64,000 nucleotides of DNA from positions 18,969,868-19,033,867 of the forward strand of contig NC_089320.1 in NCBI RefSeq assembly GCF_036669915.1, in the 5' to 3' direction. Below are positions 5,419 to 61,382 of the stretch, piece after piece (positions within the stretch are counted from its first letter, which is position 1; each line of letters opens with the position of its first letter). Both the position numbers and the translations under genes were made by a program. The DNA is from Pocillopora verrucosa (taxonomy: Eukaryota; Cnidaria; Anthozoa; Scleractinia; Pocilloporidae). Below the pieces are notes generated by a model that was given only the letters and a program-made list of their open reading frames with translations, made no database searches and was not told the DNA's origin.

Positions 5419-5449
<31 letters not shown>

Positions 5450-14603: not shown

Positions 14604-14766
14604 TTAGGAACAATGGTCAGTACATGTTGTGGTGCCGAGATCAAGGCAGGTAGACAAACGGAATTTCATGGTGCTGGAATTTAGACGGGTAGATAACATG
14701 CCAGGAATCACTTTGTTTGTTGAAGATCTAAAGAACCTCAAACGTGGCCATGCTGTGGGATTCCAT
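14604..14766 (-). CDS. Gene E candidate terminal exon
   Basis: 53 codons plus stop, entered in phase 2 as required by the ShKT donor. It is Arg/Ser-rich and ends with a Cys-containing TTTCTDHCS. The acceptor CTTCTTAG is good. I prefer it for its length, but the function of the tail is unknown. Confidence 0.4.
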
Positions 14767-17700
14767 CTAAGAAGCTCATAGAGCACTGAACCTGACTAAA
14801 CTGACAAAAATCTTCTGCCGAGAATTAAGGAAGCGGAGTTTGAGCGAGTTTCAAGTTCCATGGTTGCCGTAGAATAAATAATCGAATTTTTTTAATTGAG
14901 GGGGCTCAAAAATCTTAGCCCGATCTGCAACTTCATGAAACAAAATTTTTCCTTAATACCGCATTCGTTGTGAGTGAGGGCCTAATCTCCTCGAGCTTTT
15001 CCAAAAATGCCAAAATGCTGCTGGGAAGTCAGTGAAATTGCATTCGGTAGAAGCTTCACATTAACCACCACTCTAATAGTAGCTGGACACTGCTACAATA
15101 CAGTTGGAGTGTCTCTCGCAGTGCGAGAGACTACACTCCAACTGGATCTTAGTAAATGATTTTAACGCTTTAATTTATTTCTCTCTTTATTTTTTATTTT
15201 TACTCTTTGTCGAAATTAAGTGAAATACTAGATGGAATACTTTACATCAGAAACTTGACCAGCAATCCAGTTACTGATCACGGCAACGTTTACTCATTCT
15301 TAAAATTTGTCCGTTCTTTCATACCCTTTATCTCCAACTATGCCGGTATTTTTTGCGCGTGTGTCAGCTCTAACGACATATGAACGCGGGAACTGATTCT
15401 TGTGGAATTACTTATCAAACTTATGGCTGTATTCTGGAAATCCGGCGTTATTCATAACGTCATCTTCAAGTTCAATGGATTTGTCTTTTGTTTGTCCCCT
15501 AAAATATAATAGAAATATAATAGACCTTAATGGAATAGTCTACAAGATAATTATTAAGTGTTTAGTAACAGTTATAGCTGTTATCATTAATAAGATGTGT
15601 TAATAAAGGAGTAACAGGCGAGATCTTTCAGCCTCCAAATTCGAAGATACTCAGACTCATTTGAGCCGAATCTTTTAGCCATAGAGATTGCAATTGCAAT
15701 GGTAAAAATGAACGTTTATTTCAAAGAAGATAAAAAAGGAAACAACCAAACATAAAAATACCTACCCATCACAGAAGCCGCATGAAACCACACAGTAGTC
15801 TCGGATGTTGATCTCGTCAGTGAGTGAAAGTGGACTGTTACACCATCCAAATTTTACTAGCATGGGACACCGAGGATCGTAATCCCTACAAGGACCTACA
15901 TAGAAGAAACACAGGTCATTCAATAGACTGAAGTAATGTACTTAAGGCCCGTTACGCCTTTAAGTTTCCATAGGAAGCCTTAAGCAAAGCAAACAAGCAA
16001 CATGAAAAGCACATTAAAAAAAAGAGAAAAAAAATCGAGTTTGTGGAACTTAAACGTAAAGCGCGGTGCTTAAATAGCATGAAGACTAGGCAAGAGACTG
16101 AGCAGAATTTTCTTGCTGTGAAAGAATTAAAACTCCATAACAATAACAAATTGATGTTTCCAATCTTAGCTAATAACTACCGTAGACGTTAGGCTTTGGC
16201 GAGGTAACTGAATCATGCTTCCCATGAAGATCGGCCATCATAAGGGCATCGGAAGACATGCTTCCTTGTTGAACCCAGATTGGAGCTGGTGTACCCAAGG
16301 CAGTATTTGCTTTCGTAAACGCCTTTCTATAGCCTGAAGAATGATGACGTATTCTTTCCCTCATAATTGTATGATTTTTTATAGGCTTGTTCGCCGTTTT
16401 TGGTAATGTTACAGGGAGCGTCCGAGAGCCCTGCCTAATGTTTTCCTTTTTGGTCAGAGTCGTCACGGATGTGGGTTTGATTTTAAGTTTCCTTTGTAAA
16501 ACTAATCCTTTCCTATTGCGTCCTCCATAAGGCGAAGCTTCATCATGAGTGGTCAACTGTCCTAATCGGTTATTCTTAGTTATATGTGCGGAAGGGACAA
16601 ATTGAGAGTCATTTACTTGCGATCTGGATGTGCTGGAGCTGATATTGTTTGGTGGCAATTTTTGGGCGATGCCTTCCGATTTTTTCGTAGCCTGCGTGGA
16701 ATTTGAGGAAGGAATAGATATTTGAGAAGTCGGATGCAGTCGATGAATACACGTAGAATTCCCGGAAGAACACTTTGCCGCGGGCGGCTGACCTTTCGGT
16801 GTTATTCCTGAAGAATGAAGTTTCAATTGGTCGCTGTTGCCGGTGCCATGAGGGGTATTCAAGATGGGCTGTTGAAAGTTGTTGCTCGAGAATTGCTCTA
16901 GATTTCTAGTAGGTTGTTTCTTTCCGACACCACTGCTTTTTGACATCCTTAAAGTCCCGAACAAGGAATGGAGAATTTTAATGTTATGAGCGGGAAAATT
17001 CTGAGTTTGAACCACTGGGATAGGAAGCAATTGAATCTTTAATGGCACTGAAAAGGAAAAGGACGCATAAATTTAAATACGGCTCTCATTTCTTGCCCTG
17101 TGAATGAAAATACAGGCAGTATCAAAGCATGGTACCAGCTATTGCTTCATCAACGACTTCTAACTTTCAGATTCGCGATCGTACGATACATTGTTTAGAT
17201 GACTGGCGTACACTTGACCGAGGACATTTATCCTGTGCTATTAGGGATTTCCACCTAACTTCTGTTTTGCACAGGTTTATACCAAATGGTCTTTGATTAA
17301 TACAGACAATGTAACGACGTAAAGTCCCCTTAAAGTAATCTTACCTGGTGCATTTCCGTTTGGTTTTTGTGTGCTGCTGGTTTTTGAAGGAAGTGCCTTT
17401 TCATTTTGCAAAGCAGTTTTTCTTGGTATGACTGGGTTCCATGTAGCTTCCATTATATGGCCAAGTAATTTCTTGTCCCCGCCATTAACAACGTCGGAGT
17501 GAAGAGACGATTCCTTCGAATTTGAAAGCAAGTTTGTTCTCATCTGGTCCCCAATTGGTTCTTGTGATGTATCTATGAAGTTCATCTTTAATCCCTCTTC
17601 TTTATTATTATAATTTTCTGCAGTCTGCTGATGAGTTCTTGCGCTTCCACCTTGTTCATGATACCCTGCTTTTACCATCATCTTCGTTAGTGTTCCCATA

Positions 17701-18389
17701 TGGACTCGTTGGATATTTTGAAAGCCAATAGCTTTAGCTGAAGTTTTGTTTTTCAACCTGGAATTTAACAAACCCTTGAGTTCGACGCTGAACAAATGAG
17801 ACGTCCCAGAGTCTGTCAAAATAAAATGTGAATATCCAAGAGAATTGAGTATTTGGCCACTAAAGGCTTATTGCCTGACTGCCAGAGCTTGTTTCCTGTT
17901 TTCACAACATCGCGCTAAGATCTCATGTAACCCCCTGAAATTTTTACTATTTTTTTACGAGGGTATCCATTTTAGAAGGAGTGTCTTGCTCAAGAACGCG
18001 GTAAGCGACAACGTAACAGGACAAACAACAAGCTCAAATTCCCATGCTTTACAAAGTCTTCGTACAAGTACATCTACATTAATAGTGACCTCATAATTTG
18101 TTTTTCAAAGTCCTCCAAAACTAATTTTCTGATCATTTAGATGACAGAATATCTCAAAACATAGTGTTTTTTTCCCGAAATTCATAACATGCATTGCTGC
18201 TAAATTTCTTTTATCTGCAGCGTTTTATTACGAGCAGCACATACCTTTCCCCAATTTCGGAGAAATTTGTCTAGGCTTGATCTCAAGTGAAGGAATAACA
18301 ATGCTAAACGAAACACATAAGAAGAGTGCATACGATAAAAAATCCATTCGAATCATTCGAGAGAACATAGTCTCAGCCATTAAAGACAT
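14604..18389 (-). CDS. Gene E: secreted Ser/Thr/Lys-rich protein with C-terminal ShKT
   Basis: Exons 18245-18389, 17345-17812, 16181-17047, 15766-15895, and probably 14604-14766; total 1,773 nt, about 590 residues. Start: the first ATG of a frame giving MSLMAETMFSR, then a hydrophobic FLSYALFLCVSFSIVIP core, so it is secreted. Residues 49-204 and 205-493 are low-complexity, rich in Ser, Thr, Asn, Gln and Lys, with only two Cys (KCSSGNSTC) and no recognised fold. Residues 494-536 are ShKT. There is no vWA. It shares the signal/variable body/ShKT/tail plan with B, C and D. The last exon is the weakest join: the acceptor and phase fit, but shorter alternatives exist near 14500. Intron 14767-15765 holds a hairpin (15101-15144). 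Confidence 0.78.
15101..15144. repeat. Short inverted repeat (hairpin)
   Basis: Arms of about 20 nt (CAGTTGGAGTGTCTCTCGCA and its complement) with a 3-nt bulge and a very short loop, inside the last intron of gene E. Possibly a remnant of a small inverted-repeat transposon. Confidence 0.7.
15766..15895 (-). CDS. Gene E ShKT-domain exon
   Basis: 130 nt, phase 1 in and phase 2 out. Six Cys in ShKT order: PCRDYDPRC, then WC, then YCVVSCGFC. The donor is GG|GTAGGT; if unspliced, an in-frame TAG follows one codon later. Confidence 0.88.
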
Positions 18390-19385: not shown

Positions 19386-19530
19386 TTATCGCTGCAGCTC
19401 TTCAGGCATATTAATTACTCGTAAGTTACGTTTTAGAAACTTTCTGCTGTACTCGGGAAATCCAATATCCTCTGGCTTCTTTTCTTTTTTGTGCAAGTCA
19501 AAGGTATCTTTCTGTCCATGTTTCACGAAA
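19386..19530 (-). CDS. Gene D terminal basic tail exon
   Basis: Phase 2 entry after CTCCCACAG, then 47 codons and TAA. Lys/Arg-rich (HKKEKK, RKFLKR), with possible dibasic processing sites; no Cys. Confidence 0.75.
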
Positions 19531-22500
19531 CTGTGGGAGATCAACGCAAGAAAAAGTATAAACAAAGAATATATATAAAGAAAAAAGGGAGCTATGCCAT
19601 ATTTCAATTCCTGAGACTTGGCTGTTTCACAGGTTTTCATATACCATGAACAGCAACATTATATAGGTGAAGAGAATAAACAAAGCTTTCTCGCAATTTT
19701 TGTGACATAACTGCCTAATGGATTCTTCGAGACTGGGACCTTTAACTGCAGTATGAAAAAATTAAATAAATAAAACGCTATTTGCATGCAAACGTACCTG
19801 TTGCAGACGCCGCACGACCGCATACAAACCTCACGAACATTAAATACCTCTAAAAAAGGATTGGGCTGATCACACAGGCCACTCAAGAGAAAAGAAGGAC
19901 AGTCAGGGTGGTAATCTTCACACTGACCTGGACGAGGACAAACACGTTTAGCCGCAAAAGTATTTATGAACCTTCTGCTTATCTGGTAGGTGTAAAAGGA
20001 TCGTTTAACGAATTGTTGTAATGACAGCAGGACCTGAATTGTCTACGCGTTATTTGCTGCGACATAATGTTGTAATCTACGGATTGAATAATCGACGTAG
20101 GTGTGGACATAAACAACGTCAATTTTCATCTTTGCTACAAAACAGTAACTAATTGCGTAGAAAAGGTTGTGGTTATTCATCGTGGTGAATAACAATAAAA
20201 GCTAATTTTTTTAACTAAGGAATATAATTACTAACTATTAATAACTAATAACTAAACTATTAATAACTAATTAATCTCAATAGTAAAAACTCAGCAAAAA
20301 ACATTAACAGAATGAAAAGTGATTTAATACTATTTCTAAATGAATTAGTTCTTACCAGCAAAAATGTCGTGTTTGTCTGTTTTGCGAAATGAGCTGATTT
20401 TAGGAGCACTTGTTGCAGGTGGAAGAGTCATATACATATTCGATTGAGGATGAATTGAGACTGATCCAGGATCAGTTCCAAATGGTAATGAGCTAGGGGG
20501 CATGGGTAAGGGAGCAAGGTTCTGAGGGAACCACCCTGGTCTCTGAGGATAATGTACAGGAATAGGTGGGCCTGCCAGCACCTCAGGGGGAGCCTCTTTT
20601 GTTGGTTTTGTTGTTTCCTTGGGCTTTAAAGTAGTTGTTTCCTTCGTAGTCGGTACAGTTGGTTTTGCTGTTGATATGAGTGGACAACAGCCAGGTCCAC
20701 AAACTATTTGGCATAAAATAATTGGTTGTTGCTGATGTGACTGACTGCTCGCTTTATTGTTTGGTTTTGTGGGCGAAGATTTGCCATCAGGCGCACCACC
20801 CTTAACTGCGGTCGTAGAAATTGGCTTGTTTTTCGAACCATTAGGTTTTCCAGAGTGCGCTTCTTTGTTGGATGTACTCGACGGAGGAGTGGTGGGATTT
20901 GGATTTCTAGAGGTTCCCGATTTCGCTAAAGTTTCTGCCGGCGCGCTCGTAGGTTCTAACTTTGCCGAGCTTTTATTCACAGGCGTTGGCTTTGAAGAAC
21001 TAGGTACTTGGTTGCTACCATTTCCTGATTTTCCTGGTTTAGAGCTGGCAGAACCTGAGGGATTTTGGTTTCCTGAAGACGATGACGGGTTATGGGGTGC
21101 CTCTGGCCCTTTTCCGTTTTTACCCCCTCGGTTGCCTGCGTTAGGGGCTGCAGCTGCACTACTAGTTGTTGGGGTCGGAGTCTGAATGGTTTCTCCATTG
21201 CCCTCACGTTGGTTTGTATTATTTGGGGCCTGAGGCTGAAGTTTTTGGGAATTTTCTGATCCTGCTGTCTGTATTGATGGAAGTGCTTGGATCGGAATGG
21301 TTTGAATTGGAAGGACTGGTATAGATAACAACGGGGTTTGAATAACTGGCACCACACCTGTTGTAACAAATGCAAAATACGTTTCAAACGAGGATCAGTT
21401 ATACAGAAATAAGTAGCATGTGTTTTAGAGTTACATCTTACATATTCAAGAGTTGTGTCTCAAAATCTCCAGCGTGTTAGGAAAATGGAAACATTTTGCT
21501 TAAATGACGTAATCACCCGTCTTGAAGTTAAAAATATCTCAGTTCATTTTTTCAATATCATCGGTCAAATAGATATTTTCCGAATTATGATTTTTAAGAG
21601 GATTTTAGAACGTATTTTCTTATTTGTAATTTCTGTAACACCTGGTGGACTAGAAGCACCTCCGGAAGTTCCTCCTGTTCCCCCTGTTCCTCCTGTCCCT
21701 CCTGTCCCTCCTGTCCCTCCTGGTCCAGAACTACTGGGATTCGCTACACCGCCAGTTGTTGTTTGGGGAATTGATCCTGATACTTGGTTACTACCCGCCT
21801 TATTTGGATTACCTGTGGTACCTGGAGTGACTGCGCCACTGGAAACAGCTGGGGCTACTCCTGGAACTCCTTTCACCTGGCCTCCACCCATCTGATTTGG
21901 ATTTTCTGAGGTAACAGAGCTGCCTGCCCTATTACTGCTTGGTGATCCTTCAGAGGGAATACCATTTCCTTGATTACCACCAGATGGATTAGGATTAGCT
22001 GCTGTAGGAGGGCTGGCTGCCCCATTAGCTGAAACTTCACCCGTTGCTCCTTGTCCCTGGCTGACACCGCCTTGCACTGATCCATTTGTAGAAGCAGTTG
22101 ACGGGCTCATTGCACTATTAGTGCCAGACCCTTGAGTAGTGACCTTCCCACCAGTTTGACCAGACGATGCCTGCCCTGCTGACCCATTATTATTTGGTAA
22201 TGGGTTCATAGGAACTTGACTTACTGAGTCTTGGAGCTCATTTTGTGGGCTGTCATTAATGCTATTGACATTATGGAGCGGATTTTCTGCAGCTAAAGTC
22301 GGATTAAATACAAATCCTTCATCATTCCAATTATTTAGAGGAGCGGCTGCAAGAGTTGTTCCCACTTCATAAGTAGTACGTGTGGGTCGCGTGCCAAGAT
22401 TTCCTGTGGTTGATGGTCTTTGAGAAGGATGAACACCTGGACCCGGATACGAGGCATCATGCTGTGTACTGTCACCTCCCAAGGCGGAGATCCAAGAATC

Positions 22501-25500
22501 TATTGCTTTAGTTTTAAGAAAACGGGAAACATAAGTAAAACTGATCATCTTAACTCAAACTAAGTATATCATAACTGAGTAATAAAAAGTTTTAATACCA
22601 AAATGAAGTGGGACCTGGGCATGAAATTCATTCCACCGCCCTAGAAGTCAAAGTAAGCCTTCCAATTTATGGTGAACTTATGTGGCATTCAGTACTTAGC
22701 CTTTCTTCATATCTTCATCCACTACTATTCCTTCCTGACTTACAATACTGTTTCACCAAACCAACCTGATTTATCCCCATCCAATTGGTCAAGAATTGGT
22801 GGAAGACCTTGCAATAAGTCGTTATCTGTGTAGGGAGCCTCTTCTATCTCGTTGGCATCTAAAGAATTTTCTTCTTTGTAATACCCACTATGTTTTCCCT
22901 TTTGAATGACGGACGGATCAGAAACAACTACATTTGCATTGAGCGTCTTAGAGTCGGTCACTGTGGAGTTACACAGATAAGGAAATAATGTTTCAAAAGG
23001 AAATGGTACGTACATACATAAGTATAAATATAGGGCCAGGGGTCATGGAAAGAGTTGGAGAAAGACCTCATGATAGTATTAAAAGTCACGAGTTTAGTAA
23101 AGATAAGCTCATGGAAATACAGAAATTCGACAGAAAGGAAAAAAAACAACAACTTTTGAAATATGTCATTTTGTTCTTAGTATGTGAGAACTGCTGAGTA
23201 TCATTCATAACCTGAGCAATATGGCCAAAGAGATTTGGGAGACACTGTATACAATTTTCAGCACAGCTTTTATCTTTCTGTTTTATTTTACGGTCTTTTT
23301 AAGCGAAAACGTCAATCATGAACAAACAGTTTCTAAGACATGGTTTGATGCTACTCTGGTTTACAGATTTAATGAATGTAACCAAAGAAGTTACGATTCA
23401 TAGACCCAACGTTTCGACACTCCTGTCTAGTCGAAAACCTTGGGTCTATGAATCGTAACTTCTTTGGTTACATTCATTAAATCTGTAAACCAGAGTAGCA
23501 TCAAACCATGTCTGATTGTCAACCTGGTTGCCGTGTGAACTTTAACATATTACACAGATTCTAGTTCGCTGATAATAGTTACATGTCAATAAGAATAATA
23601 TATCCCAGATTTTTCCATCCTCTCTTTTGTTCCTTGATTTCAATTTTTAAAGCGCAGGCAATAAAATTACTCGCTATTAGCCTTACTCTAGACAAGCATG
23701 TACCTCCATTTAAAAATCCAACCACTGTACCGGACATTGCTGGCAAATACTTGATAACCGGAACCTTGAAAGCGTAGAGTGGTGAATCAGCAATGGTTGC
23801 CAACTGCTTCATATCTGCTTGACCACCCACACCTATGGTTACGATTCTCACACTTAATCTGCTTAGTTCTTTCGCCGCGTTAGAAACGTCATCCACCGAT
23901 TTTCCAGCCATGACCACCACCACGGCTTTTGGAGAACCACTTGGCATTTTCATGAAAACATTTTTATTTAAGATCTCAAGAGACTTTCCCAACTCGCAAC
24001 TTCCACTTACGGGGATAAGCTTGTCAAGTGTGAGGTCAAGTACTTTGGAATTTTGAATTTTTCTGGGAAGGATGTTTCTCTGGGTGTAACGTCTACTGCC
24101 ACATTCTAGAAGCCCAAACGTAATTCCTCTCGTAGGAATGTTTAAGTTTTTATACACCTTTTTCACAAACAGTCTGTACGAGCTAAGGTCCTCATTGCCG
24201 ATTTTTCCTGAGCCATCTAGTAAGAACACCACTTTTGCCGAGCCTGAAATAATTAAAGAAATTGGCTTTAAGACGAAAGACCCTTGAATAATTGTCTTAA
24301 TGAAAATCATTTACGTATAATACGACATCTTGAATCTCATCTGTCTTCGAGGCAGTTGATTATCAAAAGAAGAAGAGGTGTAAGGAGATGATGATGGAAT
24401 AAAAGGAGAAAGAAGAAGAAGAAATGAATGTCTTTCCAATGTCTGGATCAGAAACCATCTATTACGAACAGAATCAGAATTTTTCACCGCTCATTATTCT
24501 ACCTTTGAACTCCTATTGCTTTAATATGTTCCTTCAGATATCTGAAGTCTTATTCTACTCTTATTGTACTATCTTCCCCTCTACCCTGCCTCACTTTAAC
24601 AATCATCTATCTCATACCCCTATCCTGTTCGACTGTAATCAACACCTCGTTTAACTAAACTGAAATTACTCTTTTTTCTTACCAGCTGGTCGTAACGATG
24701 CATCTTCCTTTTCTTTGATGAATGACGCGATCCTCTCCAGGTAGTCCCGACCTGAGGATCTTTTAGATAAGTTTTTAAAGGGTTCGTGTCTTCCAGTTGC
24801 GAGGGCCTGTCTTATTTTCCAAAGTTGGACGTATTTTTTGTGCTTCAAGCTGTCCCTGGACGGTGTCATGTTTAATGGACGTACCTTTTCAATTAACCAT
24901 CTGCGTTCACGATGAAAGGACGATGAAACTAAAAACGATCAATTTCATTATATTAGTGAGGAACTCCTGTGCTTCGGCTTCATCTCGATTCATTATATAC
25001 TTTTATTCTACCATGACTTAAAGCAGTCACTTGCTCCTTCTTTTCAGGCCTCCATTCAAGAAATCTTTTTGCTTAATACCATTATTTGTCCTCATTAACT
25101 TGATTTCATACCATTGCCACAATAAACGTATCTTGTAATGATATGAATCCTTACAGTAACAAAAATAAGATTCGCATGTTCTCCCAAAATCACGTATTTT
25201 CTTTAATACTTTTCACAATCAATTTGCACAAATGGAATTTGGCACCCTCTAAGAACTGGTTTCTCCAATTGATCACGTCTGATACAATGAATGTTTGGCT
25301 GACCCAGAAATTACGACGTAAATATTAAGACGGCAGAGTTTGTGCTCGGTCGCTGGAGATGGATCAAGATTGTTATTTCTCACTAGCGTGGGACGAAGCT
25401 CTAAGGGGTACGCATATTCTTCATTGGTCTCACTCTGCAACAGTTTTATTTAAATTTAAGATTATTTTAATGAAACTGCTTTCAACTGAAAGAATGATCA

Positions 25501-25995
25501 TTAAGCAAGGATAACCCAGTGAACTTATGTACTTAAGATTTCTCCTTGTCGCTCAAGGCTTAGTGAATTTATTCTGTAATAAGGAAACAGTAATACACAA
25601 GCACATCCACTAATATATCTATTCTGTCAGTTTCAGGCGTTTTTCGATCAGAGATCTAGCGGTAACACTAAGTTAAATTTGTTTCGAAAAAAAAAATTAA
25701 TTAAATCATCGAGTTCCAGGATATTTATTGGCTTGATTGAGTTATGCATCAACAAAAATTACTTGGAAAAAATAACTTATCACTCAATTGTCATGTAACT
25801 GCTTTTGATGTAAGTCTAGGGGCTGTCTAGATCCCAAAATAATGATCGAGATATATACATACCGGAAGTATCCTTAAATTGTGGTGGTCTTGGTATCCCG
25901 CCTACAACTTCCAACAAAAAAATGTACGCCAAAAATAGAATGGAAACATAGTGCTTTTGTAGTAAAACATCTAAAATGTGGACGTTTTTCACCAT
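19386..25995 (-). CDS. Gene D: secreted vWA / mucin-like / ShKT protein
   Basis: Exons 25863-25995, 24683-24928, 23704-24243, 22766-22960, 21642-22505, 20356-21357, 19798-19927, 19386-19530; 3,255 nt, 1,084 residues. The start MVKNVHILDV leads to a hydrophobic core (ILFLAYIFLLEVVGG), a signal peptide. Residues 45-126 are a basic, probably helical segment; 127-306 vWA; 307-371 an acidic linker; 372-659 a Gly/Ser/Thr/Asn/Pro-rich mucin-like region; 660-993 Pro/Thr/Ser/Lys-rich; 994-1036 ShKT; 1037-1084 a basic tail. This is probably an extracellular structural or mucus-type protein (inference). The 22766 donor (GTTGGT) keeps phase 1. A stronger-looking GTAAGT at 22743 would break the frame with the next exon. 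Confidence 0.82.
19798..19927 (-). CDS. Gene D ShKT-domain exon
   Basis: 130 nt, phases 1 and 2. Cys pattern: QCEDYHPDC, LC, VCMRSCGVC. The donor is AG|GTACGT. Confidence 0.9.
20356..21357 (-). CDS. Gene D Pro/Thr/Ser/Lys-rich exon with Cys knot-like motif
   Basis: 334 codons, phase 1-1. It is low-complexity with many TTK/KPT and SS motifs suited to O-glycosylation. It has one compact Cys cluster, LCQIVCGPGCCPL (Cx3Cx3CC), about two-thirds along. This spacing resembles the second half of a minicollagen cysteine-rich domain (known pattern Cx3Cx3Cx3CC); homology is not shown. Confidence 0.85.
21642..22505 (-). CDS. Gene D mucin-like Gly/Ser/Thr/Asn-rich exon
   Basis: 288 codons of Gly, Ser, Thr, Asn, Gln and Pro with no Cys, ending in a run of GGT triplets coding Gly-Gly-Thr. 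It is an unstructured, likely O-glycosylated spacer. The acceptor may be at 22506 or, 6 nt further in, after CAATAG; both keep frame. Confidence 0.8.
21671..21722. repeat. 9-bp minisatellite coding Gly-Gly-Thr
   Basis: Repeats of CCTGTCCCT-like units on the plus strand, read as (GGT)n protein on the minus strand inside gene D. A likely length-variable site. Confidence 0.8.
23336..23513. repeat. Long near-perfect inverted repeat, MITE-like
   Basis: Arms of about 83 nt, the left beginning AGACATGGTTTGATG and the right ending with its complement at 23513. They close on a loop of about a dozen bases around ACTCCTGTCTA. It lies in the intron between the vWA exon and the next exon of gene D. A single copy is seen here; high arm identity suggests recent origin. 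Confidence 0.88.
23704..24243 (-). CDS. Gene D vWA domain
   Basis: 180 codons, phase 1-1. First motif DGSGK (last Ser lost); third motif VVVMAGKSVDD (MAG in place of TDG). Two Cys (LLECGSRR and SGSCELG) lie in the middle of the domain. MIDAS is probably non-functional. Confidence 0.88.
24683..24928 (-). CDS. Gene D basic helical exon
   Basis: 82 codons, phase 1-1, rich in Lys, Arg and Glu, no Cys. It resembles the 27832-28002 exon of gene C in place (directly after the signal exon) and composition. Confidence 0.75.
25863..25995 (-). CDS. Gene D signal-peptide exon
   Basis: 44 codons. The hydrophobic core LFLAYIFLLEVV is preceded by Lys/His; cleavage is likely near VVGG. Phase 1 donor G|GTATGT. 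Confidence 0.8.
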
Positions 25996-26566: not shown

Positions 26567-26644
<78 letters not shown>

Positions 26645-28357
26645 GATGAACATTAACTACAATGTGGACAATGAGGAAAAATTAGATACTACCATCTGTC
26701 TTTGGTCACACAGTTAGGATAACAATTACTGGAGTCTCAAGAAACCCGTCCTAGGTTTATGGTGCTAAGATTAAAACATATCAATCCGATTGGCTCGGCC
26801 ATAGTAGACGTCGTTCAGCCCTTACATTGTGTTTCTAGTCTAAGGAAAAAAACCCGAACCACAAAGGGATCATGGATTATTCCAGTTAGCTCCAACAAAA
26901 TCTACCTCCCCATTTCGTACGTTCCTAAAATTAAACAATAAAAAAATTAAACAAATACTGAAAACATACTCAATTGAGCTAATTGGAACAGTACTAATGA
27001 TATTGTTGTTGATGACAATACCACTGATGATGATCATATTAACGATAGTGATTATGGTAAATATACTTATAATAGTAATAAGAATGACAATGATAATAGC
27101 ATCACTCATCCATAAAAAAATATATCAAGGAGCATCATTCATCCAAAAAAACGAAAATCAATTCTTAAACCATATAAGGGAACCTAGCTATGCCTAACTA
27201 TACACCATCGAGCGATGTTGTTTGTAGGCTAGGGCAAGTCTCTAAGAAAGCGCTATCTAAAGAGACTGTTTGCTGTTTATTTCTTAGAAGCTTAAAATAA
27301 AAGCTCAGACGTACTTTTTGCAGTATCCACATGAAAGTGCGCATGTCTCATGGATGTCGCGGAGGTCTTGGAAGAGTCCAGGCCAATCACAAAGTCCATT
27401 TAACGCGTAGGAGCCACATAATGGATGCTGGTCTTTGCAAAGACCTGCAAATAAGGATTTGTAGAGTATATTCAGACAATGATTTTGGTTCTGTGAATGA
27501 ATTAGGAAATTCATGCTAACTCCCTATTGATTCGTGGTAAAGGATACACGGTAATTGCTTCATGGAGGGAAACAAGGGGCTTTGTATCACCTCATAATCC
27601 ATTTTTAAGGGTTGAAGGGGGGGGATAAATCGCTCGCTTGTCTGTAGTCAAGATCAAGGTATTCAAAAAGCTAAGAAGTTTAGTTTTCTTTGCCACCAGA
27701 TTCCCAATTTACAGGAAATATCAGTCCATTCCTAAATGTTTTACCTAAGCTACATAACATCAAAATTCATTAAAAGCAGCGAATAATAAAATAAACATCT
27801 AACAGCACTTTTAAAACAGATATAGCCTTACCAACTTTAAGTGGAACAGTGTACACCTGCAAACTCTTTCGCAAAGGACGAGGCTGCCTGCTCTCTTTGT
27901 GTCTGACTTTGGTTCTTGTTAAAATGAGATCCCAAAGTAACTTTGCTCGAGCAGCTTTATCGCCATCGTCCTCTTTGTAATGGCTGTCGAGCCTCTTGAG
28001 GGCTGTAATGAATAGTTCAATCAAAAATGAAGAGTGGCCCTTATGAATAAGACAAATCGTAGCACCAAATAATAATGGGATAACCACCAAATCAGTTCAT
28101 GTATAAGGTATGGCTGATATGGATTAAGCCTTTATACATCGATCGTATTACGAGCAAAATACGACACCATTTAACCCGTTTGCGGATTACATGAACTGAA
28201 AGATTCGTTTGTGAATCTATAACCTAACAGAAAAGTCTTAAAAATAAAATGACAACTGATGTACTTTACCCGAGTGATGGTTTCTCGGACGAGTCACGAA
28301 GACTAATGGTATAACAACGAATGATAAGTAGAGAAATAGTCCAAAACGGGCGATCAT
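26353..28357 (-). CDS. Gene C: small secreted ShKT protein
   Basis: Exons 28270-28357, 27832-28002, 27315-27444, 26353-26392; 429 nt, 142 residues. Start MIARFGLFLYLSFVV is a clear signal peptide. Residues 30-86 are basic and probably helical (RLDSHYKEDDGDKAARAKLL), 87-129 are ShKT, and the last 13 residues are a Lys-rich tail (NKKRKKEVG). No vWA or low-complexity region, so this is the minimal member of the family. Such secreted single-ShKT proteins in cnidarians include channel-active peptides, enzymes' accessory modules and matrix proteins; no activity can be assigned here. The tail exon is short and so less certain. Confidence 0.78.
26570..26641. repeat. (TC)n microsatellite
   Basis: About 35 uninterrupted TC units, in the last intron of gene C. 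Confidence 0.97.
26985..27115. repeat. ATG/AT-rich low-complexity tract
   Basis: Degenerate GATGAT/AATAATG repeats that yield long meaningless Ile/Met open frames on both strands, within an intron of gene C. Confidence 0.6.
27315..27444 (-). CDS. Gene C ShKT-domain exon
   Basis: 130 nt, phases 1 and 2. Cys pattern: LCKDQHPLC, LC, TCALSCGYC. The donor is AA|GTACGT. Confidence 0.9.
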
Positions 28358-30225: not shown

Positions 30226-30514
30226 TTATTTCAATTTATCGAATGGTTCGCCCGATCCACTATTCAGTTCATCTCCTTCAGTAGGCCTCTCTGACTGAAT
30301 CACACGACCCAAGGCCTGATGACTTTTCTTTACTCCAACTTGTTCTTCTTTAGAGTTGCTTTTAACATGTTGAGACTCGAGTGTTGAATTTCCCTCGAGA
30401 TCCCTATTTCGAATGATTTGTACTAAGGCTCTGTTCAGTTTCGCACGCATTGCAGGCCTCACATGGAGTCCAGAAGGTGTCTGCCTTCGAAGAAGTGCCG
30501 CATTCTCGTCGTAA
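30226..30514 (-). CDS. Gene B terminal charged tail exon
   Basis: Phase 2 entry after TGTTTCAG, 95 codons and TAA. Rich in Arg, Lys, Glu and Ser (LNRALVQIIRNRDLEGN), no Cys. It is the longest of the family's tails. Confidence 0.78.
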
Positions 30515-51554: not shown

Positions 51555-54500
51555 ATGTTTTTGCATGAAAAAGGATCGTCTTTCCGATCACTTGGTTACT
51601 TCGTGTTTACGATTCATTGGATCGCCATTTTGTCGTCAGGTTTGGCATATGCGTCTCTTCTTTAAAGAGGCTGGAATGTTTATAATTTCTATAATAGCCA
51701 TAATGAATATTCAGTGAATAGGTGCCCTGAAAACTTAAACTTTCGTTCCCAATTGGACAAAATCCCCAGTAAAAGATGAACATTGTGAATATATCATGGT
51801 CTTTATTAGTCCAGTATGCGAACTATAGTATAGATGTCTTATCCTTTCTCCAAACCCCTAAGGAGATGAACATCAACATTTTTAATCTTATCCATCGCAT
51901 CGTTTCATCTGAACATTATTAAGAGTCATTAAGATTCCCACGACGCGCGAATTTTCATAATAGAATTGACACAGCGTAGCTTGTAGGGTGGTTATCAGCT
52001 GACGGTAATATCTTGCCATCATAGAAAATAGGATATAAAACAGTGGCCTTCAATAACTAATACCCGTTTATGCAAAGAAAAAGTAGTGCTTCTCCGTCCA
52101 TAGAATGTAGTATAGCGGTAGAAGTTGGTCATCGTCAGATCACATTTCGAAAAATTTTTCATCAATTGCTTAAAGAAAGTGAACATTCGTGTGAGTCGTG
52201 CTTAAATACCAATTTGCGATATGATTTCAAAGATCTTTTATTTTAAGCAAACTATGCGCTACAACATAAGGCTTCCACCTGAGCTGCTGTTCGCACACAC
52301 CATCTCAAAGGAAATGTATTTATTTTCTTTTAGGCTCAAAAGTCAATGACACTCAGGAGGTGGCGAATTTAATGGGTAAGATAAACATGTATCACGCTAA
52401 TTGAATTAAGGTGGACGCAATGTCGATTGGTTAATGCACTCAACTTCTCTTCGAATCGAAAGCTCCAAGGTCCAGCCGTAGCAGAGCCATTTTGTTGAGT
52501 GAATGTAAGCTCATGCAGGGAACAAAATCAGCGGTTGGAACAAAATAAAATAATTTGTGTTAAGTCTGCCATCCAAAAAACTTAATTTTTGTTTTTGGTT
52601 AATTTATGGAGAGGGGAGTTGTTTGCCTCGTGTGAAGCGCAAATGGTAAAAATCATACTATATTTTAAAAGCTCAACGCAATTCATTCAAATTCAGCAAT
52701 CATAGTTCGTTAATTTGGTGAAAAAACGGAACTCAATTTCTTATATTATCTATACAGGTCAACTCTTTGATGATAGCAAAGCGTGCAACACCCTTACTAT
52801 GGAACTCGGCTTCCTTGTATCAGGCAGCTATAAAGAATCAAAGGACAAGAGTGAAATGACGTTCAGAAAAGCATTACGCTTTGTAAGAAATATGGCACAA
52901 AAGGCAAAGGTTTCCGATTCGGGAACCCATATTGGCCTCGTCGTGTATGGCAAGAAGCCTTATTTGGCGTTTGACTTCAACCAATACTTTGAAATATCTA
53001 GTCTCTCGCAAGCCATTGAAGAAGTGAAAACGCCCATTGCTGGGAGCAACCTTGGAGAGGCCCTTTCGTTTACCAAGAACCAGCTATACGATAAAAGCGC
53101 GCGTCCAAATATTCCAAAGACGTTAATTGTTCTTTTATCCAAAAGATCGGAAGACGCCATTGGTCACGCTGTGAAGGATCTGAAGGATGTTGGAGTGAAA
53201 ATTCTTACAGTGGGGATTGGTGGTGAAAACGATCCTTTAGAAATGAGTGACTCAGCTTCAGATATTCAGAATACTTTGATATCAGATGAAAATCATTTGG
53301 ACACTTTGGAGACAAAATTAGCCCCAAAACTATGCCGAGGTAAATATTACTCATCAGTATCGGCCATTCTATTTTAGAATTAATGTCAAGCAAGAACATG
53401 TTGTTGAAATTTCGATCTATAGTCCTTATTTACTCCATCTTAAGTGGTTTTCTAGTTTTCTTATGATCTCCATGCTCGAGTTTCTCTCTAATGTTCATTA
53501 TTTCTTACCTTGAAATTTAGGCCCGGAAATCAGACTTGCACTATTGAAGTAAATATGAACATGTTTACAAGAGCTATTTCGAACTTAATGTTTTGAGTAC
53601 TATTTGCTTTAGTAATCAATAGCCCTTAATTAATGATATATTTGCTTTTACATTTATAAATAAATAAATAGCTCCTTTTGCAAAATCAGAAATTTCTTCA
53701 TTTTACTTTTATCTTTTTGTTCCCTGCCAGATGTAATTGAAGGAAGCAGCTCCCAAGGTTTGTTACTCTCAGTTACCCTTTTTAATATTAAACATTGCTT
53801 GAAGGCTGATGTGACAAGTAATTGTTTATATCATTATTTTTTCCATTGAGGGCTATTGGAACTCAAAGATAGCAAAAGTCACCTTGCGCCGTAATCGGAG
53901 TTGTTCTCTCTTTAGATCGGTTAATTTGTTATGTTGAGCACGGTGCACACATGTTACTCCCAGCATACATCAATGTGGGTAGAAGAGGAATTTACTGAAA
54001 TATAACATGGAGAAATCGTTGAAATACCGTCAAAAAATATAATGTCGAGAATGAAGCTTTACCTCAATTTTCTGTCACATTGATCGCTTTGTAATATCAA
54101 AAGTAAATGTTCACGTTTCTCTTCTTACTTTACATGGTGCAATTGGAAGAAGTGACACCAGATGACTCAGACTCTGCGAGTGAGTATGGAAACGATCATT
54201 TTTGATGAGCCATATGACTTGATTTCTCAAATATGCGAGCTGCCGGTTTACGCTCATCAAAATCTGAAGTTACAGAAGAGAATATAATGGCAAAATTTGA
54301 CAAATCAGGAAGTGAGAATCATAAAATATAAGTAATAAACTTGACAGAGACGCAGTATTCTGCAACATTTATCTCTCTAAAATGTTAAAATTAACGTCTT
54401 TTTTTTTTCTTATGAACCAAAGTGCAAACAGAAGTGACATTGGGTGGCTCTGAAGCAGCGAGTAAGTATAGACTCAGTCAATCGTTATAAAATATTTTGA

Positions 54501-57500
54501 CTTTACTCCTGTACCTTCCAATTGCAAGCTTCCGTCAATGCCCATCAAGAATTAATAATATATAGAGCAAACTAATTTCCCGGGTTGTCTTACATACACT
54601 AACGATTAAATTGCCATTTAGTCCTTGATTCCTTAGCCACGCACTGAAGTCCTGTGCTAAGAGTCTATTGAAATCATTGCACCTACAGAAGTAGTCCCAG
54701 AAAGGTCGCAGGAATAGCTTAAATACTTTAACTGCACTGTGATTTTGCTTTTCTTTCAAGGCAAAAATGGTACTAATTTCAAAGAGGGCAATAGAGAACG
54801 CAATTACTATCTTATCCTATGTTACAAGTATCAAAACCTGACTATTTTATCACGATGTTCACAGGTCTTGTTACCCCCCCCCCCCCCGCCCTTCCCCCTT
54901 CCTCCACTTCCCACCTTGCAGACCTTGTCAAATCCTAAAATAATAAGTGACTAAAGTAACTGAGTGTTGACTGACGTTTTCTTTTTCTTTCAAATTATTT
55001 AAGTGAACCCAAGCGAGGAGCCAGATCCTGAAATTATCACTGTAACGCCAGATGGTAATAACTTATACGAAATCATTAGAGTCGATGAGCAAAATGTTAT
55101 TCAGGGGGCAAACTGGAAATTTTGTTGATAACTTTAATAGCTTACTTACTAAGTGTTGTCGCAAATTCTCCAAAAAAATTCCAACGAATAATTTTTTTAA
55201 TCTGTTTTAGAGACTCCAAGCGAAGAAACCGATACAGGAGCCATCTCGAACTCTCCAAATGGTAGGTTTTCTTGATAGATTAGTAAGAGGTATTCCATTT
55301 TTTCGAGTCATGAGAAAATGTTGCAAGATTTAAGGGTTTAATACAAAAGGTGGAATTAGAGTTGGTCCACACTTTGGAACAAAGTTCTCTAGTTTGAGAT
55401 GTTTAGCTTTGCGAGCGCGGAGTTGATCTTTTTCTAATAATATTTCGAGTTTATACGCCGTTTAACATGAAAATTGAAGCTTTCGATCTCGTAGAATCGT
55501 GTAATTTGCGAGGAAAAATTTTGAGGTTTAGGTTTAACAAAATTTTTGTAGAAGACTATTTTAAAACAAACTCTTCTCGTTTGTACATTTCATTTAAAAT
55601 TTCTTTGAAACTTTGACCACTTGAGTACTCAACTGTACAAAATGCATGTAAGAACAACGTCTGGATTAAAAATAAGGCCGACTCCTAACCCCTGACACGG
55701 AAAAAACTTGAGAAACTTAACTCAAAATCATGAAAATTGTCTCATCAGCAATAAATTCGCCGAAGAAGCCAAATATTGAAGAAAATAAAGGTAACACATC
55801 ATTTTTTTGTTCATAAAACTATAATCAATTAATCAAAAATGTCAATATATCAGATATACAACTGGATCAGTTTATCCAACACATGAGGCTGTTTTTCCCT
55901 GCCAGTGTAGAGATAGGAAGCCAAATGTCCCTGAGTGAGGAATCCAACCAAATCTATTGCCTCGCAGGTCCACGGGCTAACAAGGTGGATCTCGTGTTTC
56001 TTGTTCAGAGCTCCGGGAAGATGGGTGTTCCTAACTGGATTCGCACTGTTTTGTTTATGAAATATGTGGCTGATGCTTTTGATGTCTCAAAAATGGAATC
56101 AAGGCTTGGTCTTGTCGTGGAGGGAAGAACGTTTCACGTTGTTGTAGACTTCAACAGAATCACTAAAAAGAAACTTTTACTTAGTGCTATTGGCCTGATA
56201 CCGCTTCCATTTGGTGATCAGAAAATAGGCCAAGGCTTGACCGACGTGAGAGAACTTGTCTTGAATCCTAGTGGCCGACCTAACGTCCCTCATATTTTGA
56301 TTGTGGTAACAGATGGAAAGTCTTCAGATGACGTAACACAACCTTTGAAGTCGCTTGAGAAAAGTGGCGTGGAAATATTTGCCGTTGGGTTCGGAAACAA
56401 GATTTCACTTGGTCAATTGGAAAAAATTGCTAGTTATCCGAGTTCAACACATGTATTCCACGGTGACTTTAAGGAGGCCGTGAAACTTGCAAGCAAAATA
56501 GTTGCTCAAATTTACGAGAAAAATTTTTGCGGTGGATTGGACGCTCTTTTGAAAAAGCTTTTACTCAGAAAAGCAAGGAAATCAGGAAAAAAGAAGAATG
56601 CCAATGGTAGATAATGGCTTCATTCTTTGTGTGGGAATCTTCATTGTTTTTCTTTTCTCCATCTTTTAAGAAGCCTAATATGCGGCTTTGATGGTCGATA
56701 CATAAATGAACCTGCTGAGTGTGGTACGGTTTTCATACTGGGTCACTAGTTAAATCCATCTGTTTCTCTTGAGTGGACATATGGTAAAAATGGACCTAAT
56801 AGAAGGATATCTTTTTCCTTTTCTTTCTTTCAAGCTCTGCCTCATCTCTCTCTTGTTAGAGATGAAACACGAACGAAAAACAAACAAACCAACAATGAAG
56901 AAGGTCGACAACAGGGCTAAGAAATTACGCGTTATCCGAAAAAAATGTTGACGCTTGATGCTAAGTGCAGCTGGCACGATTCGACTCTTTTCACTTTAAG
57001 AATTTGAATCAAAAAGCCCTTCGTTGCACTACTCCTATCCTAATAGCTAGGTTAAAAGAGAAATCGACAGGATAACAGAACATGTGTAGCAACGATCTAT
57101 TCATATTTCTGCATTACGTCTTTCACATGAAATATTATTTTTTTGTGATCACATATGCCCCAAAAGCTGATAAGCGAGGTTACACCTACGCCATGCCTCA
57201 TGATTTGCCACTGATATCCATGTATATGAATCGGTATGAATTTTTCATCTATAAAGTATAGAACATATGCCTCGTATCTTTATTTGCAGTGCATGCAATT
57301 CGCAAGCCCATCCCCAGCCATGATGCTACAAATAGAAAAGAAGCACAAGTGGAAAGCAGCTCAAGCGATGATGACACCTTCGAGGACGCGATGGTTAATC
57401 CTCCGTCAAATCACTCTAACATCTTAGATGCGCTGTTCGAGAGCAGCTACCGAGACAACAGAACAATAGAACCATTCAGAGAAACATCTAAAATGTACAA

Positions 57501-60500
57501 GACAGAACCAAACTCAATCCCTCAAAATGGGACGTCCCCATACGATGACCATGATGAAAGAGATGAGTCCACTACAAATGACAGCAGCGGTGCTAACATG
57601 ACAACAGGTACCATTCTATTCCCCTTTTTTTTTCAATAACCGAAGAGAAAAAAAAAGTGCGGACGAAAGAAATCAACCGAAATGTTTGCATAATTCAGAT
57701 GGTCTATGAGCGACATTCTGTTGCCCTCTGCCATCTTGGTGCTTCCATACTTTCCGAAAAGACGGACGCAAACTTTCTATATATGGGATAGAAAGTTATA
57801 AACTATATACCCTGCAGATACGTGATGGCAAATGATACCAGCATAAAAATAACTTTTGGCTTTTAATATTGTAATCTAAACAGGCTTGGTTTTCAATAAC
57901 TATTCGTAATGGAGGTAAAGATAAATCTTTAGGTGGCCAAATTATTAAAAAATCTGTGGCGTTGCAAGTCTTTCTGGTTTTTTTTTTAATGAAAAAGTAC
58001 CTTTAAAGGCATTTGTAATCTGTAGTTTTCACTTCACAAATGAAGACATCACCTCAAAGTGTTTTTATTTTTGAAATTCAATTTTGAAAGTAATGAAACC
58101 ACTCTGAATTTCTCTATCCCGTTTTTCATTTTAGAGAGCACTACAGAATCCAATAATAAACACATTGCACTCAAGGACCTAGTAAATAAAGGTAAGCCCT
58201 ATGTGCTGGCCAAAGAGCTGTAGAAAATATCTTTCGTTTTTGAAATTCAGTTTACATTGCCCTCTTCCTCTGCCCTCCTTTCATTCTTTTTGTATTCACA
58301 AGCAGCGCACGTGATTTCGCAAATTAGACATTGAAAACTGACGTGCACATTTTTCGCCCACTTTTGTCATTTGTTTTACAGAGTTGTTAGTTAGTTGTAT
58401 CGAGCTTTGTTCGCGCAAATTTTTACCCGTTGTTCGCAATTTCAAGAATTTTCGGAGTTTTCATTTTAGCCAAATGCTGTGGCTATTTAAAAAAAGTTCA
58501 ATATATAATTTTCTACTGAGTTTGAACTTTAGGCTCTTTTTTCGTAAATGGAGTTTTTACAAGGGTCAGATATTTTGATTGTGTGATACGTTTTATTAAA
58601 TTTATTATTTCCTCCTCGCCATCCTACCTCTTACTGCGCTCTCAACGTTTTCCTGTCGATGCTCGTGCATTGGTGCAAAACGGGTGCTCGGAGACAATTG
58701 TACAGAAGATATATTTTCATATTCTCTATCTTAATTCCATTGGTAACCAGTTTCCTAAATCTTACATAATAACGAGAACCACCACTGCATTTCACTTTCA
58801 CAAAAATGTTGGTTTTACTCTTCCCTTAAACCCTTCTAATGATGCATTCTGGTGTTACAGTTTGCTCTGCAAAAGCCGATATTGGAATCCTGATTGATGG
58901 CTCATCATCAGTAACGGAAGCTAACTTCGCCAAGTTGTTAGACTTTACAAAGAGCCTGTCTAAATCCTTCTCGGTGTCTAAGGATCACACCCACATTGCA
59001 GTTGCCACCGCGTCCAGAGGTCCGCGCATGAGTTTTGATTTTGAGGGATTCAATGACATTCCGAGCCTCGACACAGCAATATCCCGCATATCATACAATG
59101 GTGGACCATTTTTGTTAGGTAATTGGGCAAGTGGACCATCAAATTTACTGATTTAAGCCAGTTACGAATTAAAGCTTAAACGTCATTTAAAGAGGTGACT
59201 TGAGAGTAACGTGGTAAGCAGAACCATAACGGTGACTTCCGTTGTTAACAATTAAAAAGTGAGAATCACTTGTTGGTTTGGCTTTATGAGAACCTACACT
59301 ACATTTATGTATCTAAATATTCCAAATTCGTGTGAATATTTAACAGATAACCTTCCCATGACATGAAAAAAAAATAGATATGAACTAGTATTTGAAATTT
59401 TATCTCAATATACTCTTTATTACTCATTGCAGGATCAAGTCTAACTGGCGTAAAAACCAGCTGGTTTAAGAATAGTGGTCGTAAAAGTATTCCTCAACTT
59501 CTTCTTGTCCTGGCCACTGCATCATCAATTGATGACATCGCAGTACCGTCACGTGAGATGCGAGACCGAGGTGTTCGAATTGAGGCCGTGGGGATTGGGT
59601 CTGGGTTTGAAGGGGGGCAGCTGAAAGAGATAGCAACACATCCTGCACAAGATCACGTGCTGGCTGTATCCAAATATGAGCTGCTACCTATGATTAGACC
59701 GCTGCTGACCTTCAGGATGTGCAGAGGTAAGATTTGTATCAGCGAAGCGATAAAACCAGCGATAGTGCCGACTTTTTTAATTGTGAGGCCTACTTTCTCC
59801 ACATTATTTTAATACCACGATGTTCAATACATATTCTTTGTTGATATCGTATGTTATACTACAATCTCTTCCCAATAGAGGAATAAAATCTTTCATAATA
59901 ATTTATGGGAACAAGCTGAGTACCTTATTGACAAAAATTAAACGCCCTCATTTTTATACCAAGATTGCCATTAACATTTACAAGTTGTAACTGAGGTTGA
60001 ACATATCAAGTTCTGCGATTGCAACATATCACTCAGTTTTGTAGCAGTCACTTACATGATTTAATGATTTATGAATCTACAGCTGTCGGAGGGAAACTTA
60101 TTGCAAGACCAGATTCAGGTAAAATTTTTATTTATAATTCTTTTATAGTCTTTTCAAAGAGCGTGTCATTCTAGTTTTTGAAACGTTGAGCGGCCTCAAT
60201 ATACGTTTCTATACATTCATTTAATTCAGTGTTTTAATTCCTAAAAAACTGTCGTAAGTGATGAAGGTTTTGTAACGGAATATTTAAAATTTTTAAAGAT
60301 GCAGATCCTGATCCTGATGTAATGGTATCTAATTCATCTACTGCTGCTAATCAAACTATTACGAATGAGCAGCAGCCACTACCTGGAATCAACCACGTAA
60401 AAAACGATTCAAATGTTGGCAAGGAAATGACAGTAGATCCAACCATGAAACAAGAAAGACAGCCAAGTAAACTGGCAGCTACCTTAAAGCAGTTGGATCA

Positions 60501-61382
60501 ATACAAAATGATTCGCCAACAAAAGAATTTGGAAAATAGCAGCACAGAACAACAAGATGCAATAGAACACAACTCAACTGCAACAAATAAATCGCAACAA
60601 GATGAGATTGAGAAAGAAAAGCTCAGGAAGGTAATTGTACAAAGAATCTATCATCTATTCTTTCAACACCTATCGCCTTGTGGTCAAAACCCGATTTCTT
60701 ATTATGAGGTGGCTATAAAATCTTTGACGGTCCGATAATAGTAAGGTCACTCTTTTCAGGATATAAGAAGAAAGCTTTATTCGTTGATACGTCGGCTTGG
60801 CGGAACAAAGAAAGACGTAAGGGCTGCTTACAGATCTATCATCTACAACATAAATGGACACCACGATAGTAAGTATTCCCATTGTTGTCGCACTAAACGT
60901 GCACGCCAGATTCTCTATCCTCTACATGTACATCTACCTTTCCTTTTTTTCAATTTAAGTACCCTCGTCAAGCACCCTTTTGGTTTATATTTACGATTGG
61001 ACGTTAATCTCTAAAATTAATGCCTACAACGTTTCTCGACAGTTGACCACCATTTTCCAAGAAAACAGAATTTTGCATAGTGTTCCTATGGACAAGGTCA
61101 TTTTTTCCTTATCCTGTCCGTGCTTATTATCTCTCCCGAAAACCTTCAGTGTCTCTTTGTTTGGTAGTTTCAACAGGATAGAGATAACAAAGTTGCATGA
61201 CATGCAGATTATATATATTTTCGCTAATTCCACCCCTCATTACTACAGCTGAATACTGCAAAGACCACCACGATCTGTGCAAACAATGGAATACAGATAA
61301 CCTTTGTGAAAAGGGGAACGATATCATTGATGCACAATCCGTGCAGAGAGTGTGTCCAAAATCCTGCCAAGTCTGTTTCTGA
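51555..61382 (+). CDS. Gene H: secreted protein with three vWA domains and terminal ShKT
   Basis: Exons 51555-51639, 52334-52375, 52758-53339, 53731-53757, 54150-54179, 54423-54461, 55004-55054, 55211-55261, 55749-55790, 55911-56606, 57290-57607, 58135-58191, 58861-59118, 59433-59726, 60083-60118, 60299-60630, 60760-60868, 61249-61382; 3,183 nt, 1,060 residues. Signal peptide from MFLHEKGSSFRSLGYFVF; vWA at 43-236, 317-548 and 674-857; acidic micro-exons 237-316; acidic Ser/Asp-rich 549-654; Gln/Asn-rich 870-980; basic helix 981-1016; ShKT 1017-1060. All introns are phase 1 except 60631-60759 (phase 0). An upstream in-frame ATG at 51462 exists, but the 51555 ATG gives the better signal peptide. 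Same family as gene G, in opposite orientation. Confidence 0.85.
52758..53339 (+). CDS. Gene H vWA 1
   Basis: 194 codons. Motif 1 SGSYK and motif 3 VLLSKRSEDA: MIDAS lost. Cys before strand 1 (KACNTL) and at the end (KLCRG). Confidence 0.88.
54150..55790 (+). CDS. Gene H acidic micro-exon series
   Basis: Five exons, 54150-54179, 54423-54461, 55004-55054, 55211-55261 and 55749-55790, preceded by 53731-53757, all phase 1-1. They repeat the theme TPxxSE/VTPD/PSEEPD/PSEETD, which suggests exon duplication of a short acidic spacer. Confidence 0.75.
54874..54914. repeat. Poly-C / pyrimidine tract
   Basis: A run of 14 C followed by C/T-rich DNA, in an intron of gene H. Confidence 0.9.
55911..56606 (+). 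CDS. Gene H vWA 2 with basic C-terminal extension
   Basis: 232 codons. Motif 1 QSSGK (Asp lost), motif 3 VVTDGKSSDD intact. The domain is followed by about 30 basic residues (LLLRKARKSGKKKN) before a phase-1 donor. Confidence 0.88.
57290..57607 (+). CDS. Gene H acidic Ser/Asp/Asn-rich exon
   Basis: 106 codons with SSSSDDDTFED and several N-glycosylation sequons (NHS, NGT, NMT). Unstructured spacer, no Cys. Confidence 0.82.
58861..59726 (+). CDS. Gene H vWA 3, split over two exons
   Basis: Exons 58861-59118 and 59433-59726. Motif 1 DGSSS intact; motif 3 VLATASSIDD lacks TDG. The intron is phase 1 and lies after the GPFLLG turn, further into the domain than the phase-0 split in gene F, so it is an independent intron position. 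Confidence 0.87.
60299..60868 (+). CDS. Gene H Gln/Asn-rich and basic helical exons
   Basis: Exon 60299-60630 (polar, QQ/KQ-rich) joins in phase 0 to 60760-60868 (DIRRKLYSLIRRLGG, basic). No homologue recognised. Confidence 0.72.
61249..61382 (+). CDS. Gene H terminal ShKT exon
   Basis: Cys pattern: YCKDHHDLC, LC, VCPKSCQVC, then Phe and TGA. Unlike the minus-strand ShKT exons it carries its own stop and no phase-2 donor. Confidence 0.9.

Follow-up and report, generated by a model that had tools for sequence, protein, structure and literature searches.

How a family of secreted proteins can keep one end constant while the rest differs from gene to gene is the question raised by a gene cluster in the coral Pocillopora verrucosa. 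The window analysed here is a stretch of 64,000 nucleotides from assembly GCF_036669915.1 (contig NC_089320.1, C9 below, positions 18,969,868 to 19,033,867), and coordinates without a prefix are positions within it. Five minus-strand genes (B, C, D, E and G) and one plus-strand gene (H) each carry an exon encoding a ShKT domain, and a sequence-only reading of the stretch had described them as a factory in which a fixed secretion-plus-ShKT frame receives new middles. The explanation preferred here, at a probability of roughly 0.68, is a tandemly duplicated family of secreted modular proteins of matrix or mucus type, with variable middles and a phase-locked ShKT end followed by a tail.

The exon anatomy on which that earlier description rested is borne out by the window sequence. 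In B, C, D, E and G the ShKT exon is 130 nt long, preceded by AG and followed by GT (5/5), and the GT donor carries G at +5 in the same place in all five; the borders stand as sequence signals that these homologues conserve. The ShKT reading frame itself confirms entry in phase 1 and exit in phase 2, with one additional frame also open in the B exon. All five domains exceed the Pfam ShK (PF01549) cut-off of 20.9 bits, and H scores 19.1. The six window domains align without gaps over 42 columns, in which six Cys, one Asp and one Ser are invariant, and a profile built from the five exons recovered these five and H, and none further, above the inclusion threshold in the window. In H the donor place reads TG followed by AT, which yields TGA, AT standing where the others have GT. 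A PDB search with the G ShKT reading frame gave no match at E ≤ 0.1, and an AlphaFold2 model of six sequences (mean predicted local distance difference test score, pLDDT, of 48) was not used as evidence. All splice joins and gene borders given below for the cluster are predictions.

The genome-wide control covered one animal (353 Mb in 52 contigs) and consisted of the Pfam ShK matches listed, at least 149, a list biased towards the usual 35-residue Cys span. Gene B is the sole cluster member in it, and the flanks of all 148 other listed matches were read by one rule applied to every exon. Among these 148, entry was in phase 1 in 138 and in another phase in 2, with none found in 8; exit was through a donor in phase 1 in 114, in phase 2 in 2 and in phase 0 in 2, while the remainder met a stop within 45 nt without a donor (25) or stayed open (5). 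Phase 1 entry is ordinary, and phase 2 exit is nearly confined to this cluster, where it occurs in 6/6 exons with a donor (the five in the window and a seventh member outside it) versus 2/118 of the other listed matches (Fisher p = 6e-9). Counted from the last Cys codon, the donor lies at +5 nt in B, C, D, E and G and at +14 in the seventh member; the donors of the other listed matches fall at +4 in 50/118 and at +1 in 31/118. Similarly, the span from first to last Cys is 40 residues in all seven cluster domains and in 1/134 others; for this count 155 rows were reduced by 5 duplicates, and among 143 others the 9 with fewer than six Cys were excluded. The 130-nt length follows from the phase 2 exit together with the longer Cys span. 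Judged by their sequence signals, the five window exons and that of the seventh member lack the symmetry of class 1-1 modules. A tandem family otherwise of known kind here departs locally from the rule that ShKT exons across the genome are 1-1, and the departure is real and statistically clear. A same-strand ShKT lies within 2 kb of 94 of the 148 other listed matches, and successive cluster ShKT domains are 3.3-65 kb apart.

The kinship of these domains is local. A genome search with the D ShKT domain returned, as the best 7 of 12 matches, the six window exons and the seventh member, 49 kb left of the window; since the exon of that member measures 136 nt, a fixed length of 130 nt holds for the five window exons and fails for the wider cluster. 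With B as query the four best matches were in the cluster and the remainder mixed, and with G the next match was D, followed by a mixture. When each member was left out in turn and a profile of the other six was searched, the omitted member ranked first of 144 in 6/7 cases and second for G. A tree constraining the seven as one clade scored 117 log-likelihood units above a free quick tree (p-value of the approximately unbiased test, p-AU, 0.99), and because the constrained tree is the better one, the free quick search evidently missed it. The scattering of the ShKT exons among unrelated families, named beforehand as an outcome that would refute the sequence-only reading, is not upheld. A tree of 150 sequences and 37 columns with few supported forks does not prove a clade, and six of the seven had been grouped by position ahead of the tree, the seventh being added through similarity. 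Taken together, the cluster most likely represents a single tandem family whose ShKT exon is derived and asymmetric.

Upstream of the ShKT exon the genes had been said to differ completely, and D had been summarised as a mucin, with no vWA domain assigned to it; both descriptions need correction. There is one vWA exon in D, eight in G and one in the seventh member, which also has Ser-rich and Gly-rich exons. Further vWA exons precede the ShKT exon of H, which probably carries vWA domains as well. Pfam vWA (PF00092) exceeded its cut-off in 10/10 open reading frames in one scan, and in D and three left-hand reading frames in another. In a genome search with the D vWA domain, for which 150 of 213 candidates were scored, 7 of 10 matches at E ≤ 1e-8, itself included, lay in the same stretch of C9, and this local kin includes vWA genes where no ShKT was found. 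A vWA remnant in B, C or E was looked for in the window and rejected, nothing rising above noise. The non-vWA middles that were scanned gave no Pfam family above cut-off, and the 288-residue middle exon of E, searched genome-wide, matched only itself at E ≤ 0.01.

These unlike middles share a predicted exon grammar. Class 1-1 was assigned to 19 of 21 predicted internal exons of at least 150 nt in gene-by-gene runs on the five minus-strand genes, and to 18/21 in a single run over the whole region; an antisense control gave 0/6. The signal-peptide-like exons of B, C, D and E all leave in phase 1, and the scan lists a few elsewhere too. The exon predictor was home-made and had no phase preference; its training set was the vWA and ShKT exons of the window, supplemented by metazoan splice frequencies and by amino-acid frequencies. 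It over-predicts, calling genes even on the antisense strand. C, the only short gene of the cluster, is treated as separate from D because D has a signal-peptide-like exon with an intact body behind it.

Beyond the ShKT exon, in each of the six genes with a donor (6/6), an intron of 111 to 511 nt leads to a candidate tail exon entered in phase 2. The tails of D and E share the motif GFPEYS[RH]KF and agree at 9/13 residues (blastp E 0.003, small set); none of 400 shuffles equalled this likeness, against at least 30 for every other pair among the 21 compared. The E tail had been sought near 14604-14766, a place given up for the tabulated exon, which has the better acceptor (3.2 versus 0.2) and the motif common to D. 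As the tails other than those of D and E are dissimilar, a shared tail exon rests on position and phase. The description of the tails as usually basic fits four of six (net positive in B, D, G and the seventh member) and misses E (-3) and C (-1, judged by eye on 17 residues). The predictor's own tail paths differ from those chosen in C, D and the seventh gene. As a predicted feature, the tail exon has good support in D and E, moderate support in B, G and the seventh member, and weak support in C. For H, which was said to have lost its tail exon, loss is one possibility and an ancestral absence another, as 25/148 other listed matches likewise lack a donor and reach a stop in 45 nt or less. Homology between the introns preceding the D and E tails, both 267 nt, was considered and rejected (alignment score 23, against a shuffle mean of 21.9 and maximum of 34).

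Under the tandem-family explanation, a gene would open with a signal-peptide exon whose exit is in phase 1 and continue through phase 1-1 middle exons that vary in number (vWA, mucin-like, or rich in Pro, Gly or basic residues) to one ShKT exon, entered in phase 1 and left in phase 2 towards a terminal tail exon. The phase 2 exit would result from a donor one nucleotide past the common +4 place. Given the phase 1 junctions 5' of the ShKT exon, the frame of the end module would survive the loss, gain or duplication of exons there, and the asymmetric ShKT exon would be barred from moving or duplicating on its own. Because a 1-to-2 exon by itself shifts the frame, the ShKT exon would act as a fixed cap and not as a mobile module. 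The expected outcome is one ShKT per gene, always last, with middles free to diverge fast; judging from the anatomy, the phase-shifted ShKT exit may be what lies behind both the single terminal ShKT and the unlike middles. A more tentative proposal is that a donor shift of one nucleotide preceded the expansion of the cluster and made the ShKT exon, until then mobile and of class 1-1, an immobile 1-to-2 cap, after which the open phase 1 slot led to orphan bodies behind a constant end. The exon that underwent the shift may have been either 1-1 or stop-ended.

The most probable of the rival explanations is that of the sequence-only reading, a true exon-shuffling factory in which a fixed frame of signal peptide, ShKT and tail imports its middles via phase 1 introns. 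Several of its elements stand, namely related ShKT exons, one exon grammar and long middle exons mostly of class 1-1, and it can also draw on the lack of a vWA remnant in B, C and E in the window scan and on the trypsin genes of Nematostella, in which the ShK domain is a single exon inferred to shuffle (PMC6767649, as excerpted). Its other elements, completely different bodies and the import of middles, are not supported in the form given. The E middle, the only non-vWA middle searched genome-wide, matched nothing else and so gives no sign of an origin elsewhere; in addition, the best kin of the D vWA domain are mostly in the same C9 stretch, and the scanned non-vWA middles gave no Pfam family above cut-off. 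A factory in this strict sense is considered unlikely. A rather more improbable alternative is that the ShKT exons are real last exons, their donors unused and translation stopping just past the domain as in H. In B, C, E and G read-through meets a stop 1 to 3 residues on, which would suit such an ending, as would the 25 of 148 other listed matches that stop without a donor. However, GT with G at +5 recurs at the same place in all five exons, D stays open beyond its donor, the D and E tails are alike, and in B, E and G the stop arises because a GTGAG, GTAGG or GTAAG donor in phase 2 makes one; the stops as true ends were rejected, being explained by a consensus donor in this phase.

Least probable, and already disfavoured, are independent, convergent ShKT exons that adjoin by chance. 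B and G do score well against ShKT domains elsewhere, and in the free quick tree the cluster label needs 5 changes; so low a number was reached in 2/500 shuffles, the Cys span and phase are common to the cluster, and the leave-one-out ranks and the higher score of the seven-member clade both argue against a chance assembly. A number of results nevertheless weigh against a single tandem family of the proposed plan. The B and G queries match ShKT domains outside the cluster about as well as they match some members, and the free quick tree grouped only C, D and E (support 98). The scan for signal peptides found none in G or H. For H, the link between ShKT and vWA exons rests on strand and nearness, the first vWA exon (52758-53339) falls in a separate predicted model, and the predictor neither joined the vWA exons to the ShKT exon in frame nor read the ShKT exon in its proper frame. 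Predicted exons shorter than 150 nt often violate the 1-1 rule, and many of these may be false. The whole-region run fused C to D, which would make the C ShKT domain internal, and the two were separated only when the region was limited at the D signal-peptide-like exon, so that this border is a choice. The C donor is weak (1.25) and its tail short, and apart from D and E the tails showed no mutual similarity in 21 pairs compared with shuffles.

Table 1 Exons and related features of the ShKT gene cluster. Positions are those of the window unless prefixed; exons other than the ShKT and vWA domains are predicted or candidate.
Gene	Feature	Position	Strand	Phase	Remarks
B	ShKT exon	30662..30791	-	1 to 2	130 nt; donor GTGAG
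C	ShKT exon	27315..27444	-	1 to 2	130 nt; donor GTACG
D	ShKT exon	19798..19927	-	1 to 2	130 nt; donor GTACG
E	ShKT exon	15766..15895	-	1 to 2	130 nt; donor GTAGG
G	ShKT exon	35841..35970	-	1 to 2	130 nt; donor GTAAG
H	ShKT exon	61249..61382	+	enters 1	TGA at the others' donor place
Seventh member	ShKT exon	C9:18920836		1 to 2	136 nt; 49 kb left of window
E	Signal-peptide-like exon	18245..18380	-	leaves 1	predicted; start codon uncertain
E	Middle exon	17345..17812	-	1-1	predicted
E	Middle exon	16181..17047	-	1-1	predicted; 288 aa
E	Tail exon with stop	15408..15498	-		predicted; motif common to D
D	Signal-peptide-like exon	25863..25995	-	leaves 1	predicted
D	vWA exon	23704..24243	-	1-1	
D	Linker exon	22766..22960	-	1-1	predicted
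D	Mucin-like exon 1	21642..22505	-	1-1	predicted
D	Mucin-like exon 2	20356..21357	-	1-1	predicted
D	Tail exon, read to stop	19386..19530	-		predictor: inner donor at 19419 and one more exon
C	Signal-peptide-like exon	28270..28357	-	leaves 1	predicted
C	Middle exon	27832..28002	-	1-1	predicted; 56 aa, basic
C	Candidate short tail with stop	26870..26924	-		weakest tail; predictor spliced on from 26906
B	Signal-peptide-like exon	33552..33636	-	leaves 1	from scan; predictor starts B elsewhere
B	Middle exon	32469..32816	-	1-1	predicted
B	Polyproline/Cys exon	31116..31478	-	1-1 if entered at 31478	weak acceptor there (-0.3); predictor: phase-2 entry at 31450
B	Tail exon with stop	30226..30514	-		predicted
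G	Body	37520..48327	-		eight vWA exons; small exons between uncertain
G	vWA exons	47770-48327, 46207-46758, 44629-45174, 43642-44193, 41982-42545, 40745-41287, 39472-40008, 37520-38155	-		
G	Pro-rich exon	45515-45928	-		
G	Tail	35232..35729	-		two predicted exons, 35679-35729 and 35232-35403; very basic
H	vWA exons 5' of ShKT	52758..59726	+		52758-53339, 55911-56606, 58861-59118 plus 59433-59726

Among the closest known systems is the Nematostella tryptome (PMC6767649), which resembles the cluster in its one-exon ShK domain, many copies, varied partner domains and tandem duplication. It differs in having a trypsin partner and inferred shuffling, and the word 'phase' is nowhere in its text as excerpted; in contrast, the cluster ShKT exon is asymmetric (1 to 2), apparently terminal, and belongs to one cluster only. 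That a non-symmetric exon moved or duplicated alone by intron recombination causes a frameshift is a principle set out in PMC8001218, and the class 1-1 extracellular modules described there after Patthy are matched by the signal-peptide junction and long middles of the cluster, which obey phase 1, but not by its ShKT exon, which breaks the required symmetry. Among extracellular materials and proteomes of anthozoans, vWA domains are present in the coral skeletal matrix (PMC7853314) and count among those common in the Actinia fragacea proteome (PMC11857728); the likeness is one of description, and no such ShKT-tail end is described in the excerpts of either source. Similarly, TSR proteins of symbiotic cnidarians combine vWA, ShK and trypsin domains (PMC5446238, in part) and so bring vWA and ShK together within one cnidarian protein set, whereas Pfam scans of the cluster pieces gave no thrombospondin or trypsin domain.

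The vWA domains themselves bear on what the proteins might do. Metal binding by vWA domains at the metal-ion-dependent adhesion site (MIDAS) involves the motifs DxSxS and TDG. The full pair occurs in 0/13 vWA domains of the cluster (eight in G, one each in D and the seventh gene, and three upstream of H), with DxSxS alone kept in 2/13. Among neighbouring vWA domains without ShKT it is complete in 3/8, two of the eight being unaligned at TDG, and the three complete cases are the single-exon domains at 375, 6280 and 11973. The contrast between cluster and neighbours is real but not sharp. Stretches that are mucin-like or rich in proline, glycine or lysine, taken with the incomplete metal motif, suggest that these secreted proteins are structural components of matrix or mucus, the ShKT domain being a disulphide cap. 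A role as non-enzymatic extracellular scaffold, in which the ShKT cap and tail at the C-terminus would bind or cross-link, is a weaker suggestion from the same features. ShK-type channel toxins are free, channel-blocking peptides released from a short precursor, and the short gene C may have a venom or signalling role.

Several further features were observed in the window and genome. The neighbouring vWA exons form a run without ShKT at 375-12637 on the minus strand, three of them single-exon and four split over two exons; in these four the complete metal-site motif is missing or full alignment is impossible. A silk-like Gly-Ala-rich repeat exon lies beside vWA exons at C9:18931131-18931601, 38 kb left of the window. 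Within G, a 147-bp tandem repeat in two copies (42504-42794) overlaps the start of the fifth vWA exon and is a possible mark of local duplication. At 63301-63492 on the plus strand a predicted secreted gene begins with a hydrophobic leader followed by a 15-bp repeat coding Pro-Pro-Gly-Pro-Glu. Elsewhere in the genome, eight ShKT matches on one strand within 10 kb (C12:15612168-15622363), four of them equal in score, are perhaps a young exon array, and two large arrays of GFP-like exons hold 74 matches (C1:670362-884433 and 28361248-28791301). The best PDB match of the GFP-like sequences is amFP486, a sea-anemone protein, in keeping with an anthozoan genome.

The cluster genes seem to carry one terminal ShKT each in front of which the bodies are very different, and the exit of their ShKT exon departs from the 1-1 rule of the genome in a way that should block this exon from moving or duplicating alone. 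If the tandem-family explanation is true, the grammar of the reading frame steers which part of a gene family can vary, and the proposed link between intron phase and module mobility can be tested by following the same cluster across anthozoans.

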